A stretch of 64,000 nucleotides of DNA from the NCBI RefSeq assembly GCF_003399625.1, contig NZ_NBXA01000026.1, positions 310,001 to 374,000 on the forward strand, read 5' to 3'. The DNA comes from Subtercola boreus. Its GTDB lineage: Bacteria > Actinomycetota > Actinomycetes > Actinomycetales > Microbacteriaceae. Every line of letters begins with the position of its first letter. Position 1 is the first letter of the stretch. The position numbers were made by a program, and so were the translations under genes. Shown here piece by piece: positions 8,259 to 64,000 of this stretch. Below the pieces are notes generated by a model. It saw nothing but the letters and a program-made list of their open reading frames with translations. It ran no database searches and was not told where the DNA came from.

Positions 8259-8875
8259 GGGCGGCGTGCCCGGCGACGCTCTCGCCACGGCAGTGCCCGG
8301 TAGGCGGCCTCATCGGCCGCGCGCTGCTGCTCAGAGGCGACGAACCGTGCGTCGCGCCGCTCGCGCCAGCGCTCGATCTCGGCTTCGACGTCCCGCGTGG
8401 CCGTGACGACCGGTGGGCCGCCCTTCAGCTGCCGGCGCGCCTCGACGACCCGGGTATTGAAGTCGTCGAGCAACTCGCGAACCCGCTTCTCGGAGGGTGC
8501 GGCATCCATCTTCTCGTCGAGACCCGCACTCTCACTCCGGAGCGTGAGTGCGGGAGGCCCGAGACCCGTGATGTTCTCGCGTTCGATCTTCTGCTTGATC
8601 CACCAGTCGGGGTCATAGGCGTCATGGAGGTTCTTGAGCGGCTTGCCGGAGCCCGGCAGATTGTCGAACTCGCCCCGGCGCATCGCCTGCTGGATCGAGA
8701 TCTCGACGTACTGCGCGCGAGCTTCCATCGATCGCTGCCCGGAGAGGGCGGTGTCGTCGTCCTCCGCCGCCCCCGCCTCGCCGGCTTCGCGTCTGCCGTC
8801 TCCCGGCAGTGAGCCGTCCGTCTGGTAGCGGGACACGTTCAGGCGCGAATCGCTTCGCTTCCTGCTTCCGGCCAT
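8249..8875 (-). CDS. DUF1992 (DnaJ-homologue subfamily C member 28-like) domain protein
   Basis: A 208-residue soluble protein. The DUF1992 core lies at about residues 55-125: EISIQQAMRRGEFDNLPGSGKPL, then a DPDWWIKQKI helix, a motif shared with the non-J part of DNAJC28. The N-terminal 45 residues are polar and disordered, and the C-terminus is a charged helix ending in Arg-rich sequence. The start at 8875 is supported by TAGGCT 7 bases upstream. The function of this domain is unknown in bacteria. It converges on the formate dehydrogenase gene across a 29-base tandem repeat. Confidence 0.8.
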   Translation of the reverse strand: MAGSRKRSDSRLNVSRYQTDGSLPGDGRREAGEAGAAEDDDTALSGQRSMEARAQYVEISIQQAMRRGEFDNLPGSGKPLKNLHDAYDPDWWIKQKIERENITGLGPPALTLRSESAGLDEKMDAAPSEKRVRELLDDFNTRVVEARRQLKGGPPVVTATRDVEAEIERWRERRDARFVASEQQRAADEAAYRALPWRERRRARRPGA

Positions 8876-8885
8876 GTCTGCCAGC

Positions 8886-9072
8886 CTAGGTTTCGCCTCC
8901 GGCCCGGTCGACCCCCGACGCAGGAGTTTCGCGCTCGGCGAAAGCCGCGCATCCGGGGGCCCGACCGGCCACGGCGTGCACGGCATCGACCGCGAACGCC
9001 AGGCCCGGCACACCGTTCGGCGAGGGGGCACGGGTCATCGGTGCCATCACGAAGCGGTTGCAACCGGGATGG
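8886..9072 (-). pseudogene. remnant of an Old Yellow Enzyme N-terminus
   Basis: The conceptual peptide NRFVMAPMTRAPSPNGVPG (roughly 9010-9062) is the N-terminal strand and loop of NADH:flavin oxidoreductases of the Old Yellow Enzyme family, including the MTR segment. After GVPG the frame continues for about 35 residues without family resemblance and stops at 8886. Upstream there is no plausible start in the same frame. The simplest reading is a gene reduced by deletion to about 20 recognisable codons; a chance match is possible. Confidence 0.45.
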
Positions 9073-9090
9073 CCCCCGTGCACCCGCCGT

Positions 9091-9291
9091 TCAGAGCGTT
9101 CGCGGGTTGCCGTACTCGAAGAAGCCACCGCGCGTGACGGACTGCGTGAGCAGCTCCCAGGCCTCGCCCTGGAACCGGAGGATCCGCTCGGGCTCACCGT
9201 CGGCACCGATCGGCAGAGCGACCTGCACCCCGTGGTCGGCGGTGTTGGTTCCGCGCAGGAGCAGCGCGTACGGAGGGGGAGAGTCGGTCAT
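9091..9291 (-). CDS. small hypothetical protein
   Basis: A 66-residue soluble protein of unknown function. It has a Pro-rich start (MTDSPPPYALLLRGTN), a beta-rich middle (GVQVALPIGADGEPERILRFQGEAWELL) and ends EYGNPRTL. A TACAGT -10 element lies 7 bases before the ATG (revcomp at 9299-9304), so the transcript is probably leaderless, which supports both the call and the start. It sits directly beside the flavin oxidoreductase remnant; no functional link can be made. Confidence 0.55.
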   Translation of the reverse strand: MTDSPPPYALLLRGTNTADHGVQVALPIGADGEPERILRFQGEAWELLTQSVTRGGFFEYGNPRTL

Positions 9292-9369
9292 CCGTCCGAC
9301 TGTACGCCCCTCGCCGACTCGCCATCACCCGACCCGGCGGCCAGCAGCGGCAACAGGCGGCGACGCGGC

Positions 9370-10233
9370 TCAGCGCAGGTACGCGTTCACGATGAGGTCG
9401 CCACGGATCTCCCGCAGACGCTCGAGGATGCGCTCGATCAGCGAGGCCGTCACCCCGCCGGCCACGAGGTCGAACCCGCCGAGCGGCTGAAGCCTGCCGC
9501 AGCGCACCCGGATGACCTCCCAGCCGGCTTCACGAAGCAAACGGTCCTTTCGGCGGTCCGTTGCCTCGCGAGTGCCGACATGTTCGAGCCCGAACTTTCC
9601 GATCGTGTCGTACTCGATCGCGACCTTCAGCTCTGCCAGAACGATGTCGGGCCACACCTCCCGGTGCGCGAAGAACGGCCTCCGCACCTCGACCGCATTC
9701 GCGGCGCGGAGGTCGATGTCGAGCCGTTCGGCGAGCCGGCTGCGCAGGTCGCCCTCGGCGGCGGATGCCGGCCGGGGGGCCCGCCCGCTGTGGAACGCCT
9801 CACCCGCGGCACACTTCGCCAGCGTGGTGCGGGGAGCTGAAGCGACGACAGCTGGTCGCGAAACGGCCCTCCGGGCATCCGGAACCGCCTGCTGGTCGGG
9901 CGGGAGGTGACGGTTGACGATCCGCTTCGGCGCCGCGAGCGCGAGGCACTCGGGGCACCACGACGATCTGCGGCGAACTCCGCCCGGTCTGTGGCGCTGC
10001 TCGTCGGGGGTCGCCACGAACACATGCCCGGCGTCGCACTGCCAGGTGAGGTACACCTCGGCAGCGGGCGGGATCTGAGTGAGAGTGATGTTGCGGTTCA
10101 GGTCGGGGTGGTACTGGCGCACGAGCACGGGGTAGCGCTCCCATTCGGTGCGGTACGCCCCGATCTCGTAGGGCACGTCGCGCTCCTTCGAGCGCTGCCG
10201 CCTCGCCCACCACGCTTCGATGTTCTCTGCCAC
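9370..10233 (-). CDS. zinc-ribbon protein with PD-(D/E)xK-like nuclease C-terminus
   Basis: A 287-residue two-domain protein. At about residues 60-97 is a zinc ribbon of the DUF4379 type: WQC66-x3-H70 and C93-x2-C96, a family with repeated W..C..GH/CP.C motifs. After a linker, residues 165-250 look like a Vsr/DUF559-type nuclease fold: D196 in PDIVL, E207-Y-D209, then DRRKDRLLREAGWEVIRVR. It may bind and cut DNA; whether it acts in repair or defence is not shown by the context. The start is a GTG with TACGAT 6 bases upstream (revcomp 10240-10245), a leaderless layout. It diverges from the secreted nuclease operon. Confidence 0.65.
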   Translation of the reverse strand: MAENIEAWWARRQRSKERDVPYEIGAYRTEWERYPVLVRQYHPDLNRNITLTQIPPAAEVYLTWQCDAGHVFVATPDEQRHRPGGVRRRSSWCPECLALAAPKRIVNRHLPPDQQAVPDARRAVSRPAVVASAPRTTLAKCAAGEAFHSGRAPRPASAAEGDLRSRLAERLDIDLRAANAVEVRRPFFAHREVWPDIVLAELKVAIEYDTIGKFGLEHVGTREATDRRKDRLLREAGWEVIRVRCGRLQPLGGFDLVAGGVTASLIERILERLREIRGDLIVNAYLR

Positions 10234-10317
10234 GGCCAGATCGTAAACCGAACCTCCGACAGCCGACCAGATCAGGGAGAAGTTCTGCGAGGCTCTTGTC
10301 GCTGAGCCTCTTTAATG

Positions 10318-10334
10318 AGGTAATTTCAGGTAAT
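10318..10334 (+). promoter_or_regulatory. AGGTAAT direct repeat, possible regulator site
   Basis: AGGTAAT occurs twice, starting at 10318 and 10328, one helical turn apart, in an AT-rich island of an otherwise GC-rich intergenic region, about 95 bases before the nuclease start. Tandem half-sites in phase are typical of response regulators such as PhoP/PhoB. The sequence does not match a consensus I can name. Confidence 0.35.
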
Positions 10335-10427
10335 GATTTCCTGTGGGAGTCAATCGGTCGGGGGCCTTCGACGTTGCGTCGGAGGGCCGAGTCCATCCAG
10401 CCGATGATTCTCCCGAAAGGGGTCGCA

Positions 10428-58953: not shown

Positions 58954-59008
58954 GCACCGAAGAAGGCCGGAACGCTGACGCGGCGGGCGCGCGATGAAGG
59001 ATTCCAGG

Positions 59009-59236
59009 ATGACGAACCCGAGCCCCGTCGACGACATCCCGATCGGCGGGGAGATGATCCGCCTGGGGCAGTTCCTGAAGTTCGCAGGGCTCCTCGACTC
59101 CGGCGGCCTCGTCAAGGACGCCATCGCAGACGGCCGTGTGAGCGTGAACGGAGAGATCGACAGGCGCCGGGGGCGACAGCTGCAGCCCGGCGACATCGTC
59201 GGTTTCGGGGGGCGTCGGTTCCGCGTCTGCCCCTGA
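59009..59236 (+). CDS. S4-like RNA-binding protein
   Basis: A 75-residue protein consisting of an S4 domain (IRLGQFLKFAGLLDSGGLVKDAIADGRVSVNGEIDRRRGRQLQPGDIVGF), like Hsp15 or YbcJ-type proteins that bind RNA, e.g. ribosomal complexes. Start at 59009, 7 bases after AAGGA; an ATG at 58994 is also in frame. It is 55 bases after the cupin gene. Confidence 0.9.
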   Translation: MTNPSPVDDIPIGGEMIRLGQFLKFAGLLDSGGLVKDAIADGRVSVNGEIDRRRGRQLQPGDIVGFGGRRFRVCP

Positions 59237-59987: not shown

Positions 59988-60794
59988 TCAGAGCGCGGCG
60001 CGCCAGGGATCGGTGAGGATGCTGCCCACCTCGGCGAGCACGTTCGACCCGAGCTCCCCGTCGACAAGGCGATGGTCGAACGTGAGGGCGAACTGCGCCA
60101 CCTGCCGCACGACGACCTCGTCTGCCACGACCCACGGCATCGGCCTGATCCGGCCGAAGGCGAGGATGGCCGCCTCGCCGGGAGGGAGGATCGGGGTTGC
60201 CGCGTCGATGCCGAGCGCACCGATGTTCGTGATCGTGATCGTTCCGTGCGCGAGCGCCGCCGGAGCCGTGGTGCCTGCTCTGGCCGTCGCCACCAGGTCG
60301 GCGAGACTCTCGGCCAGTTCGCGAAGGCCCAGGCGCCCCGCATCCTTGATGTTCGGCACGAGCAGTCCGCGCTCAGTGGCAGCGGCTATCCCGAGATTGA
60401 TGTCGTGCTTGATGACGATCTCCTGGGCCGCTTCGTCCCACGACGCATTGATGCCGGGGAACCTCTTCGCGGCGACGACCAGGGCCCGCGACACGAGCAG
60501 GAGCGGGGTGACCCGCACGCCCTGCCAGCCGCGATCGGCACGGAGTTCGGCGACGACGTCGAGCGTGGAGGTGACGTCGACAGTCAGCCATTCGGTGACG
60601 TGCGGTGCGGTGAACGCGGATGCGGTGACGGCCGCCGCGGTCGCCTTCCGAATGCCACGGATGGGAACCCGCGTCTCGGCGAAGGGCCGCGCACCCGCCA
60701 CCACCCCGGCCACGGCGGACTCCCGGATCGGGAGGTGGAATCGCCGGCTCGCCGCGACGCTCGGCCCGCTGCCGACCAGCACCGAGGTCGTCAT
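59988..60794 (-). CDS. bkdC: 2-oxoacid dehydrogenase E2, catalytic domain only
   Basis: A 268-residue acyltransferase. The catalytic core is whole: RVPIRGIRKATAAAVTASAFTAPHVTEWLTVDVT, VTPLLLVSRALVVAAKRFPGINA, and the active-site H241-x3-D245 in FDHRLVDG. However, bacterial E2 normally has 400 or more residues with a lipoyl domain and a peripheral subunit-binding domain; here neither is present. The first 17 residues (TTSVLVGSGPS) read like the linker after a lipoyl domain, as if those two domains were lost by deletion. Its ATG overlaps the stop of the E1-beta gene by 4 bases. Whether it can work without a lipoyl domain is open. Confidence 0.85.
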   Translation of the reverse strand: MTTSVLVGSGPSVAASRRFHLPIRESAVAGVVAGARPFAETRVPIRGIRKATAAAVTASAFTAPHVTEWLTVDVTSTLDVVAELRADRGWQGVRVTPLLLVSRALVVAAKRFPGINASWDEAAQEIVIKHDINLGIAAATERGLLVPNIKDAGRLGLRELAESLADLVATARAGTTAPAALAHGTITITNIGALGIDAATPILPPGEAAILAFGRIRPMPWVVADEVVVRQVAQFALTFDHRLVDGELGSNVLAEVGSILTDPWRAAL

Positions 60795-61774
60795 GAGGCG
60801 ACCTGGAACGACAGCGAGCGGTCGATCGCGACGAGCACGCGGTCGATGTCAGGCAGGAACTCGTTCTCGACGCCGGCTGGAGGGTACGGGATGTTGTACC
60901 CGCCGACTCGCAGAACAGGCGACTTCAGGTCGGCGAAGCAGTGCTCGGTGATGGTGGCGGCGATCTCGGCCCCGATGCCGCCGAACGTGCTCGCTTCATG
61001 AACGACCACGACACGTCCGCTCCGCTTCGCGGCGTCGAGGAGGGTGGGCAGGTCGAGCGGCGACAGGCTCCGCAGATCGAGAACGCCGACTGAGTAGCCG
61101 TCCTCGTGCGCTGCCGCCGCCGCCGCGAGCGCCAGCGCAACGCTCGGCCCGTGCGCCACCAGGAGGGCGTCGTCGCCGCGCCCGAGCATCCGCGAACCGT
61201 GGAGGGGCAGATCTGCGTGCGGTTCGACCTGGCCCTTGTCCCAATACCGTCGTTTCGGTTCGAAGAAGATCACCGGGTCCTCGCTGGCGATGGCCTGCTG
61301 GATCATCCAGAACGCGTCGTTCGGATTCGAACACGACACCACCCGGAGTCCGGCGGTGTGCGCGAAGTAGGCCTCGTTCGACTCGCTGTGGTGCTCGACC
61401 GCACCGATGCCGCCGCCACCCGGGATGCGGATCACGATGGGCAGCGTGAGGCGTCCCCCGGATCGCGCGCGGAGCTTCGCCAGCTGGCTCACGATCTGGT
61501 CGAAGGCCGGGTAGACGAAGCCGTCGAACTGGATCTCGCAGACCGGCCGGAACCCCCGGAGGGCCAGCCCGATGGCCGTGCCCACGATCCCCGATTCGGC
61601 GAGAGGCGTGTCGATGACCCTGTTCGCCCCGAACTGCTTCTGCAGCCCGTCGGTGACGCGGAAGACCCCGCCGAGGCGCCCGATGTCCTCACCCATCAGG
61701 ACGACACGCTCATCTGCCTCCAGGGCGCGGCGGAGACCGGCGTTGAGGGCTCCGCCCAGAGTCATGGTCTCCAT
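60791..61774 (-). CDS. bkdB: 2-oxoacid dehydrogenase E1 component, beta subunit
   Basis: A 327-residue TPP-enzyme subunit of a branched-chain 2-oxoacid (or pyruvate) dehydrogenase complex. VVLMGEDIGRLGGVFRVTDGLQKQFG with the conserved Glu, PLAESGIVGTAIGLALRGFRPVCEIQF and GGGIGAVEHHSESNEAYFAHTAGLRVV are typical of E1 beta. It pairs with E1 alpha encoded one base upstream and overlaps the E2 gene by 4 bases. Confidence 0.93.
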   Translation of the reverse strand: METMTLGGALNAGLRRALEADERVVLMGEDIGRLGGVFRVTDGLQKQFGANRVIDTPLAESGIVGTAIGLALRGFRPVCEIQFDGFVYPAFDQIVSQLAKLRARSGGRLTLPIVIRIPGGGGIGAVEHHSESNEAYFAHTAGLRVVSCSNPNDAFWMIQQAIASEDPVIFFEPKRRYWDKGQVEPHADLPLHGSRMLGRGDDALLVAHGPSVALALAAAAAAHEDGYSVGVLDLRSLSPLDLPTLLDAAKRSGRVVVVHEASTFGGIGAEIAATITEHCFADLKSPVLRVGGYNIPYPPAGVENEFLPDIDRVLVAIDRSLSFQVAS

Positions 61775-61775
61775 G

Positions 61776-62906
61776 TCACACCCCCGCGTCCAGCATCGAG
61801 GTGAGCGCGCAGAATTCGGCTCGCTCGCGTTCCATCACGGGATGCGGTTCGGCATAGACGTTGCCGAACAGTTCCTCGAAGCGGGGCCGCTCGATCGAGA
61901 GGCAGGCGGAGCGGATGTCGCGGGCGAAGTCATCCGATTCCGCACGCAGCCCGGCGAAGAACTGCTCCGCCGTGCCGAGCTCACCGAGCAGCTTGGCCAT
62001 GCGGGAGATCGGATCGCGGCCGCCCCAGAGCGTCACCTCGTCGGCGCCCCGATAGCGCCCCGGGTCGTCCGAGCTGCTGTGGCCCGCCATCCGGTATGTC
62101 TGGGCTTCGATGAACGCCGGCCCCCGGCCGGAGCGCACGTGCAGGGCGGCCGCCTCGGTGACAGCGTGCACCGCGAGAACGTCGTTGCCGTCGACATGCC
62201 AGGCGGGCATCCCGAAACCCGCCGCCCGCTGGTGCAGTGGCGCTCCCATCTGCGACGAGGACGGGGTGGATATGGCCCACTGGTTGTTCTGGCAGAAGAA
62301 CACCACCGGCAGCTTCATCGCCGCCGCCCAGTTGAGGGCCTCGTTCACGTCGCCCTGGCTCGCCGCGCCGTCGCCGAAGTAGGTGAGCACGATGTCGTCG
62401 GTGCCGGCCAGCCGGGACCCTGCGGCAAACCCGGTGGCGTGCAGGGTCTGGGTGCCCAGAACGAGCGAGTAGAGGTGGAACCGCCTGGCCGAGCCGTCCC
62501 AGCCGGCGTGGCTCGCCCCGCGCCACGGGGAGAGCAGCTCCGATGCCGTCACGCCGCGGGAGAGAGCTGCGGCGTGCTCGCGGTAGCTCGGGAAGACCAT
62601 GTCGGCCGCATCCAGAGCCCTGATCGATCCGACCTGCGCCGCCTCCTGGCCCGCGCACTGCAGCCAGAGATTCAGTTCGCCCTGCCGCTGCAGCGCGAGC
62701 GCTTCGACATCCAGTCGCCGGGCCAGCACCATCTCCCGGTAGAGGGACTGGGCGAATCCGACATCCACACCGCGGCTCTGCCCCAGCTCGGTGAGGGTGC
62801 CGTCGCTCTGCACGAATCGGATGACGTCACGTTCGGGTGTCGGAATGGACTGTGGTTCGAGCTCGGGCGCGATGCGCTCGAGCGATGCAACATCTTTGTT
62901 GCTCAT
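61776..62906 (-). CDS. bkdA: 2-oxoacid dehydrogenase E1 component, alpha subunit
   Basis: A 376-residue TPP-dependent subunit. The TPP motif runs from GDG at 178-180 to NN at 207-208, and YRMAGHSSSDDPGRYRG near residues 290-306 is the phosphorylation-loop equivalent. Most likely substrate: branched-chain 2-oxoacids from valine, leucine and isoleucine, giving precursors of branched fatty acids. First gene of the operon; AGAAGAG lies 7-8 bases upstream of the ATG. The 162-base gap upstream (62907-63068) holds no clear motif. Confidence 0.93.
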   Translation of the reverse strand: MSNKDVASLERIAPELEPQSIPTPERDVIRFVQSDGTLTELGQSRGVDVGFAQSLYREMVLARRLDVEALALQRQGELNLWLQCAGQEAAQVGSIRALDAADMVFPSYREHAAALSRGVTASELLSPWRGASHAGWDGSARRFHLYSLVLGTQTLHATGFAAGSRLAGTDDIVLTYFGDGAASQGDVNEALNWAAAMKLPVVFFCQNNQWAISTPSSSQMGAPLHQRAAGFGMPAWHVDGNDVLAVHAVTEAAALHVRSGRGPAFIEAQTYRMAGHSSSDDPGRYRGADEVTLWGGRDPISRMAKLLGELGTAEQFFAGLRAESDDFARDIRSACLSIERPRFEELFGNVYAEPHPVMERERAEFCALTSMLDAGV

Positions 62907-63068: not shown

Positions 63069-64000
63069 TCAGCGCGGGCCGATGGCCCCGGAGATCTGCG
63101 GGCCGACGATCGACTCCAGGGTGCGCGAGAACTCGAGCGTCATGTGGTTGCTGCCGAAATAGACGATCAGCCCGCCGATCACAACGTGGCACACGGTGGC
63201 GTCGCAGAACGTGTCCGTCAGGTCCACCAGCGAGACGCCGGGCGTCTGGGCCGCCGCGATCGCCAGCGGATCCTGTGCGGGATCGAGCGTCGCCATGGCC
63301 TTCGGCACCGCGCAGGGGTCGTCGTCTGTGAGGTGCAGCGCGACACACTGGGGAACATCCTCCTTCTGCTGGTCGGCGTTGGGCAGGTCGCGGAGCGCGA
63401 TGACGCGCTTTCCGGAGGCGAGCAACGGCTGCCATGCCTGCTCGAAGTCGGCCGGGGCGATCGCCCGCCCCCCGAGGACAGGCGGGGGTTCGAGGTAGCT
63501 GCGGGTGAAGTCCGTGAAGAGCACAGCGGTGATCGCCGGGTTCTGGTTCACGCTGTCGAGCACAGCCCTGCCCCAGTCGGTGCACGACCGGATCCGGTCG
63601 GGCACGTCGTAGCCGGGATTCGCCACCCCCTCAGCTCCTGTGCCGCTGCACCACGACTTCAGGTAGGTGACGAAGTGGATGTGGTTGGCCTGCCCGTACT
63701 CGTCGAGCGGGGTCAGGTACTGGCCCGCATGCGAGTCGCCGATCAACGCGACGGTGGATGTCGGTGTGCTGACATCCCCGATGTCGCAGGTCATGACCGC
63801 ATCCGCCATGATCGTCTGCTTGCAGTCATCGACGGACTGCACGCCACGGCCGATGTCGGTCTCCGCCGAGGCCGGGTTCGTGAGGCTGGTCACCGCGAAC
63901 GGTGTCGCACAGTGGTTCTGGCTGAGTGCGGCTGGCGCTCCCGTGCATCCCGGGTCGCTCCGGATGGCCGCGTCGACGCTCGCCGAATACTGGGAGTTCT
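63069..64000 (-). CDS. SGNH-hydrolase domain of an OafA-like acyltransferase (partial)
   Basis: The C-terminal 310 residues of a gene that continues beyond the right edge. The SGNH fold is shown by VALIGDSHAGQYL (block I with catalytic Ser), ALRDLPNADQQ and the terminal YFGSNHMTLEFSRTL. Such domains follow a ten-helix acyltransferase-3 domain in proteins that acylate cell-wall sugars or lipids. The block V Asp usually found three residues before the catalytic His is not seen (GSNH), so activity may be changed. Two Cys pairs suggest an extracytosolic location. Confidence 0.82.
   Translation of the reverse strand, partial: NSQYSASVDAAIRSDPGCTGAPAALSQNHCATPFAVTSLTNPASAETDIGRGVQSVDDCKQTIMADAVMTCDIGDVSTPTSTVALIGDSHAGQYLTPLDEYGQANHIHFVTYLKSWCSGTGAEGVANPGYDVPDRIRSCTDWGRAVLDSVNQNPAITAVLFTDFTRSYLEPPPVLGGRAIAPADFEQAWQPLLASGKRVIALRDLPNADQQKEDVPQCVALHLTDDDPCAVPKAMATLDPAQDPLAIAAAQTPGVSLVDLTDTFCDATVCHVVIGGLIVYFGSNHMTLEFSRTLESIVGPQISGAIGPR

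Follow-up and report, generated by a model that had tools for sequence, protein, structure and literature searches.

A 2-oxoacid dehydrogenase operon in Subtercola whose E2 appears to have lost its lipoyl domain through a 333-bp in-frame deletion

In the 2-oxoacid dehydrogenase cycle, E1 loads the acyl group onto a lipoyl-lysine, from which E2 moves it on to CoA. Truncated E2 cores such as tE2p are laboratory preparations, not natural proteins. According to excerpts of PMC8146983, the yeast tE2p core still assembles without the lipoyl and E1-binding domains. Excerpts of PMC10415282, PMC8146983 and PMC7568260 describe OdhA as relying on another E2 for lipoyl groups, and the same excerpts of PMC10415282 present the way in which the lipoyl arms of one E2 serve the active sites of another enzyme as an open question for OdhA. 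A small set of searches among open-licence PMC papers brought up no account of an E2 that naturally occurs unfused and lacks a lipoyl domain.

We analysed an operon in a 64,000-nucleotide stretch of Subtercola DNA (hereafter the window), in which E1 alpha, E1 beta and E2 form open, adjacent frames on the minus strand from 62906 to 59988. E1 alpha (61776..62906, minus strand; 376 aa) is a thiamine-diphosphate 2-oxoacid dehydrogenase subunit, matching the Pfam profile E1_dh (PF00676) with 236 bits over profile positions 1–269 of 300. E1 beta (60791..61774, minus strand; 327 aa) carries PF02779 and PF02780 (Transket_pyr and Transketolase_C), and its stop overlaps the E2 start by 4 bp in the sequence (60791..60794, minus strand). 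The operon is an accessory 2-oxoacid dehydrogenase set (E1 alpha, E1 beta and E2) of the pyruvate or branched-chain type. Every NCBIfam match fell below its cut-off, and the best for all three proteins were pyruvate dehydrogenase subunits; for E1 alpha, TIGR03181 (pyruvate dehydrogenase E1 alpha) scored 381 bits with a model cut-off of 411. The nearest solved E2 by sequence was the pyruvate-type 1b5s of Geobacillus (152 bits), and the branched-chain E2 6zzn of Mycobacterium tuberculosis, at 129 bits, came next behind 1b5s and its related entries; by fold, the M. tuberculosis branched-chain entries 3l60 and 6zzn ranked second and third. A branched-chain label for the operon was considered and dropped, as the family models do not bear it out. 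Outside the operon, the window encodes a small S4-domain protein of 80 aa on the plus strand (58994-59236; PF13275, 82 bits), and upstream lies a minus-strand frame for an Acyl_transf_3 and SGNH membrane protein (63069-65201 in window numbering), which extends past the window end at 64000.

The E2 frame (59988..60794, minus strand; 268 aa) encodes a truncated acyltransferase consisting of the catalytic domain only, as indicated by its sole Pfam match and its predicted fold. That match is PF00198 (235 bits; residues 39–266, 59997..60680, minus strand); neither the lipoyl domain (PF00364) nor the E3-binding domain (PF02817) was matched by Pfam at E up to 1, a range in which the filters remove most matches above about 0.1. 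The original prediction that E2 starts at the catalytic domain behind a linker-like stub is borne out: the N-terminal 35 residues (60690..60794, minus strand) are disordered, with pLDDT below 50, align with the linker of the E2 of the related S. boreus P27479, and appear to be mostly what is left of the linker that joined the lipoyl domain to the catalytic one. Of the features of a full-length E2, the CAT-like acyltransferase domain and the E1 alpha and E1 beta neighbours are present; the lipoyl and peripheral subunit-binding domains are absent. A hidden upstream start or a frameshift in E2 was rejected: E1 beta overlaps the E2 start, which leaves no space for a lipoyl domain between the two.

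The catalytic domain contains the motif DHRLVDG (residues 240–246; 60057..60077, minus strand), which includes the catalytic histidine, and D240, H241, R242, D245 and G246 are invariant in an 81-row alignment of E2s. In the AlphaFold2 model (mean pLDDT 84.8, pTM 0.80), residues 1–35 fall below 50 and most of the remainder is well modelled. A fold search demonstrated that the model agrees with solved E2 cores, and the top solved matches, which include 3l60 and 6zzn, were E2s or E2 cores. The remaining E2 should still fold as an acyltransferase core and be translated behind E1 beta.

The best relative, the sister species Subtercola boreus P27479, belongs to the same genus and carries an operon syntenic with that of the window. 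Identity reaches 94.7% for E1 alpha, 96% for E1 beta and 90% for the common part of E2. The gene directly downstream of the operon is common to both (93%), and the acyltransferase/SGNH-type gene lies upstream in both, 162 bp from E1 alpha in the window versus about 3.1 kb in S. boreus P27479. The original prediction had proposed a search of orthologous operons for a longer E2, and S. boreus P27479 provides one at the same locus: its E2 (L070) has 377 aa and an intact lipoyl domain (65 bits). At the DNA level, the two are separated by a single 333-bp gap of 111 whole codons, in frame, at about codon 4 of E2; in the aligned stretch, which covers 451 bp of the window, there is just one further internal gap, of 6 bp, in the linker. 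The deletion junction falls at 60783..60786 (minus strand) by DNA comparison, the exact base not being determinable, and the absent 333 bp correspond to the lipoyl domain and linker of the S. boreus E2. From this comparison, the lipoyl domain looks to have been lost by a lineage-specific in-frame deletion in the window's lineage.

The distribution of domains among relatives bears on the order of the losses. Alignment A3 comprised 81 E2s, namely the window and the best 80 loci of a longer scan, which therefore sample near relatives and no more; the lipoyl domain (PF00364) was present in 80 of the 81, with the window as the sole exception. PF02817 was detected at E ≤ 1e-5 in 76 of the 81. The five E2s without it at that threshold (the window, L070 of S. 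boreus, L071, L072 and L082) form one clade both in the E2 tree (99/96) and in the E1 beta tree (100/100), each of which took 20 of the 80 best loci. The subunit-binding domain is clear in L076, L079 and L095 (50–56 bits) and in the E2 on contig C1 of the window's own genome (38 bits), lies below the Pfam cut-off of 23.7 bits in L071 (Aeromicrobium, 22.3), L072 (Rhodococcus MAG, 16.4) and L082 (Arthrobacter, 20.7), and was not found in individual Pfam scans of the E2s of S. boreus P27479 and the window.

By comparison of relatives, the losses took place in two steps: the tethering domain decayed before the lipoyl domain was excised, the latter in the window's lineage. The subunit-binding loss is placed earlier because S. 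boreus already lacks a recognisable copy of this domain, three related operons are sub-threshold and the five form one clade. The original prediction that E2 had lost both its lipoyl and its subunit-binding domain is correct in that both are absent; a joint loss does not fit, as the 333-bp gap covers only the lipoyl domain and linker. In L071, L072 and L082, whose lipoyl domain is intact, the subunit-binding domain (residues about 135–190) is sub-threshold, and E3/E1 binding may be altered in these proteins.

Wider comparisons used genome collections with one genome per species. Among 394 genomes drawn from the class, 120 E2 matches were obtained at E ≤ 1e-82, and 274 of the genomes gave no match at that threshold. 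Stop-to-stop frames shorter than 426 aa, a length measure that is no test for domains, occurred among the 120 matches only in the window (286 aa) and in G464:C467 (324 aa). The latter was rejected as a second short E2, being cut by the end of its 22,369-bp contig. Within the genus, E1 alpha was detected at E ≤ 1e-100 in only 2 of 12 genomes, those of the window and of S. boreus P27479, which indicates that the operon is dispensable.

The window's own genome, a draft of 4.12 Mb in 95 contigs with 98.7% completeness, encodes five E2-type catalytic domains: one each on C32, C1 and C21, that of the window, and an OdhA-type fusion on C22, which is a separate gene and has no lipoyl domain. The proposed check for a second E2 in the genome thus yielded three, since the E2s on C32, C1 and C21 are full-length, with lipoyl and E3-binding domains. 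The paralogous operon on C1 is complete, and the C21 E2 is closely preceded, on its upstream side, by an Lpd-type frame with Pyr_redox_2 and Pyr_redox_dim. A stand-alone lipoyl protein, the other option raised by the original prediction, did not turn up: no E2-type protein of this kind was found in the draft genome with PF00364 or the S. boreus lipoyl domain as query. These queries matched the three E2s and two other frames of 1151 and 654 aa, which we take to be biotin-dependent carboxylases. GcvH is present in the genome; it serves glycine cleavage. The three full-length E2s are possible lipoyl donors, above all the C1 E2, whose lipoyl domain is the nearest in the genome to that of the S. 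boreus E2 (58% identical). On C32 (G000:C32), a fused E1 alpha-beta of 794 aa adjoins the 595-aa E2 frame with lipoyl and E3-binding domains (L013:10217-12598 and 8631-10415, minus strand), and a zinc-binding alcohol dehydrogenase domain lies some 5 kb from this pair (L013:1333-3264, minus strand).

Between the window and S. boreus, dN/dS was 0.16 for E1 alpha, 0.085 for E1 beta and 0.17 for the E2 catalytic part (bootstrap range 0.09–0.30), values that include the time before the deletion, which most of the divergence may predate. With 0.17 against 0.16, E2 is not clearly laxer than E1 alpha. The catalytic part of the C1 paralogue is far more constrained (dN/dS 0.011); as E1 alpha is about as lax as E2 and C1 much tighter, selection may be relaxed on the accessory operon as a whole. 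The end branch of E2 is three times as long in the window as in S. boreus (0.066 versus 0.022), and that of E1 beta is half as long (0.016 versus 0.031).

Across 79 relatives, 108 columns of E2, 121 of E1 alpha and 142 of E1 beta are conserved to at least 95%. Window-only departures at these columns occurred at 4 of 108 in E2, 0 of 121 in E1 alpha and 0 of 142 in E1 beta; S. boreus-only departures numbered 0, 1 and 1, and departures common to both 7, 11 and 12, respectively. Set against E1 alpha and E1 beta together, the window-only excess in E2 (4/108 versus 0/263) gives a Fisher p of 0.007, for a contrast chosen after the fact. Lineage-specific E2 changes (window:S. boreus) were 7:1, 8:0 and 8:2 with single outgroups (two-sided p 0.07, 0.008 and 0.11), the 8:0 count, obtained with outgroup L072, being the sole nominally significant one. 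With the three outgroups taken jointly the count was 8:3 (p 0.23), which compared with 9:10 for E1 alpha and E1 beta gives p 0.26, and polarisation by the relatives at large gave 7:5 (p 0.77). The excess of changes on the window E2 branch depends on the outgroup and vanishes at 7:5. Some of the replaced residues also vary elsewhere: where the window has E in place of P, the Geobacillus E2 has D, and where N is replaced by P in the window, P also occurs in a Streptomyces E2. Clear decay of E2 is not established: the signal points to this subunit (four departures in the window and none in S. boreus at the 108 columns), with two contrasts nominally significant (8:0; 4/108 versus 0/263) and the other tests not.

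The truncation is real at the sequence level, and the most fitting interpretation is that a domain was recently deleted from an operon that is dispensable. The ancestral E2 would first have lost its recognisable E3/E1-binding domain, and the 333-bp in-frame deletion would then have removed the lipoyl domain and linker; the short E2, without a lipoyl-lysine, could neither be charged by its own E1 nor be re-oxidised by Lpd unaided. Lacking a lipoyl domain, the operon is unable to run through the cycle alone, and it is presumably no longer an autonomous enzyme. We consider this whole account probable, though well short of certain: a 333-bp deletion of the E2 lipoyl domain after loss of the binding domain, leaving an accessory operon that is no autonomous enzyme and most likely has little or no function. 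Taken by itself, the statement that the operon has little or no present function is about an even call. The account draws on the lipoyl domain kept by the sister operon at this locus, the complete C1 paralogue and the longer window E2 branch; counting against loss of function are the three open frames, the low dN/dS and the intact E2 catalytic motif. The deletion also preserves the reading frame exactly, an outcome that selection for a functional catalytic domain would demand, although chance alone would give it one time in three.

Residual activity through the lipoyl domains of paralogous E2s is the main alternative, a serious one that nevertheless falls somewhat short of an even chance. Its concrete form, to which we give similar weight by analogy, is that the short E2 would form a catalytic trimer fed in trans by a lipoyl domain belonging to one of the full-length paralogues, most likely the C1 E2, with Lpd re-oxidising the borrowed arm. 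Such borrowing is possible in principle because OdhA already lives on the lipoyl groups of another protein; the experimental precedent, in excerpts of PMC8146983 and PMC7568260, is the need of C. glutamicum OdhA for the lipoyl groups of AceF. Besides the short E2, the window's genome encodes three E2s that carry lipoyl and E3-binding domains, together with an Lpd-type frame and an OdhA-type fusion devoid of a lipoyl domain, the resemblance between the C1 lipoyl domain and that of the S. boreus E2 points the same way, and the frames and catalytic motif are intact. However, there is no sign of adaptation to sharing, the window E2 branch is longer than that of its sister while the E1 beta branch is not, and without a recognisable subunit-binding domain E1 has no obvious tether to a foreign arm. 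We lean slightly towards decay over borrowing. That a free-standing E2 core shed its tether, then its lipoyl arm, and now uses the arm of a paralogue, which would display a stepwise route to an OdhA-like hybrid within one genus, strikes us as rather unlikely.

An assembly or sequencing error, in which the organism possesses the 333 bp and the draft dropped them, is unlikely. The assembly is a draft of 95 contigs and the deletion was seen in one genome only, but the longest match between the two S. boreus breakpoint regions (50 bp each) spans just 6 bp, out of register; the 15-mers and 21-mers across the junction each occur once within the window; and, with the S. boreus lipoyl domain as query, the rest of the assembly gives no close copy, the best match being the C1 domain. 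The refuting case named in the original prediction, a sequence error fusing two frames, is likewise not indicated, as 111 whole codons are missing and the junction words are single in the window. Least likely of all, and very improbable, is a new role for the short protein, for instance as an acyltransferase acting on its own or as a cap in the structure of another complex: fold and motif of the catalytic domain are kept, but the gene is still the third of an E1 alpha–E1 beta operon with a 4-bp overlap with E1 beta, and the listed neighbouring frames, few of them domain-scanned, suggest no other partner.

Sister species that differ by one 333-bp lipoyl deletion would offer a simple natural test of whether an E2 core can function with an arm lent by another protein; should the core be unable to do so, the locus is an ordinary case of early decay in an accessory operon. 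Canonical actinobacterial E2s (Streptomyces L076 and Knoellia L079) have the same gene order and acyltransferase domain as the window, with about 65% identity in the matched part, but possess a lipoyl domain and a subunit-binding domain, the latter at 52.8 and 50.1 bits, whereas the window E2 has neither. The S. boreus P27479 E2 resembles that of the window in its orthologous operon at the locus and in having no recognisable subunit-binding domain, and differs in having kept its lipoyl domain. Like the window E2, yeast tE2p consists of the catalytic core and has neither lipoyl nor E1-binding domains. An acyltransferase domain with no lipoyl domain of its own also occurs in OdhA/KGD of Corynebacterium and Mycobacterium; unlike the window E2, this domain is fused to E1o and belongs to the normal actinobacterial 2-oxoglutarate dehydrogenase. 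The window E2, in contrast, is a free 268-aa frame with no fusion to the N-terminal side of E1o, and the lipoyl domain persists in its close relatives. We regard this E2 as an unusual, testable case of truncation in nature rather than a new type of system.
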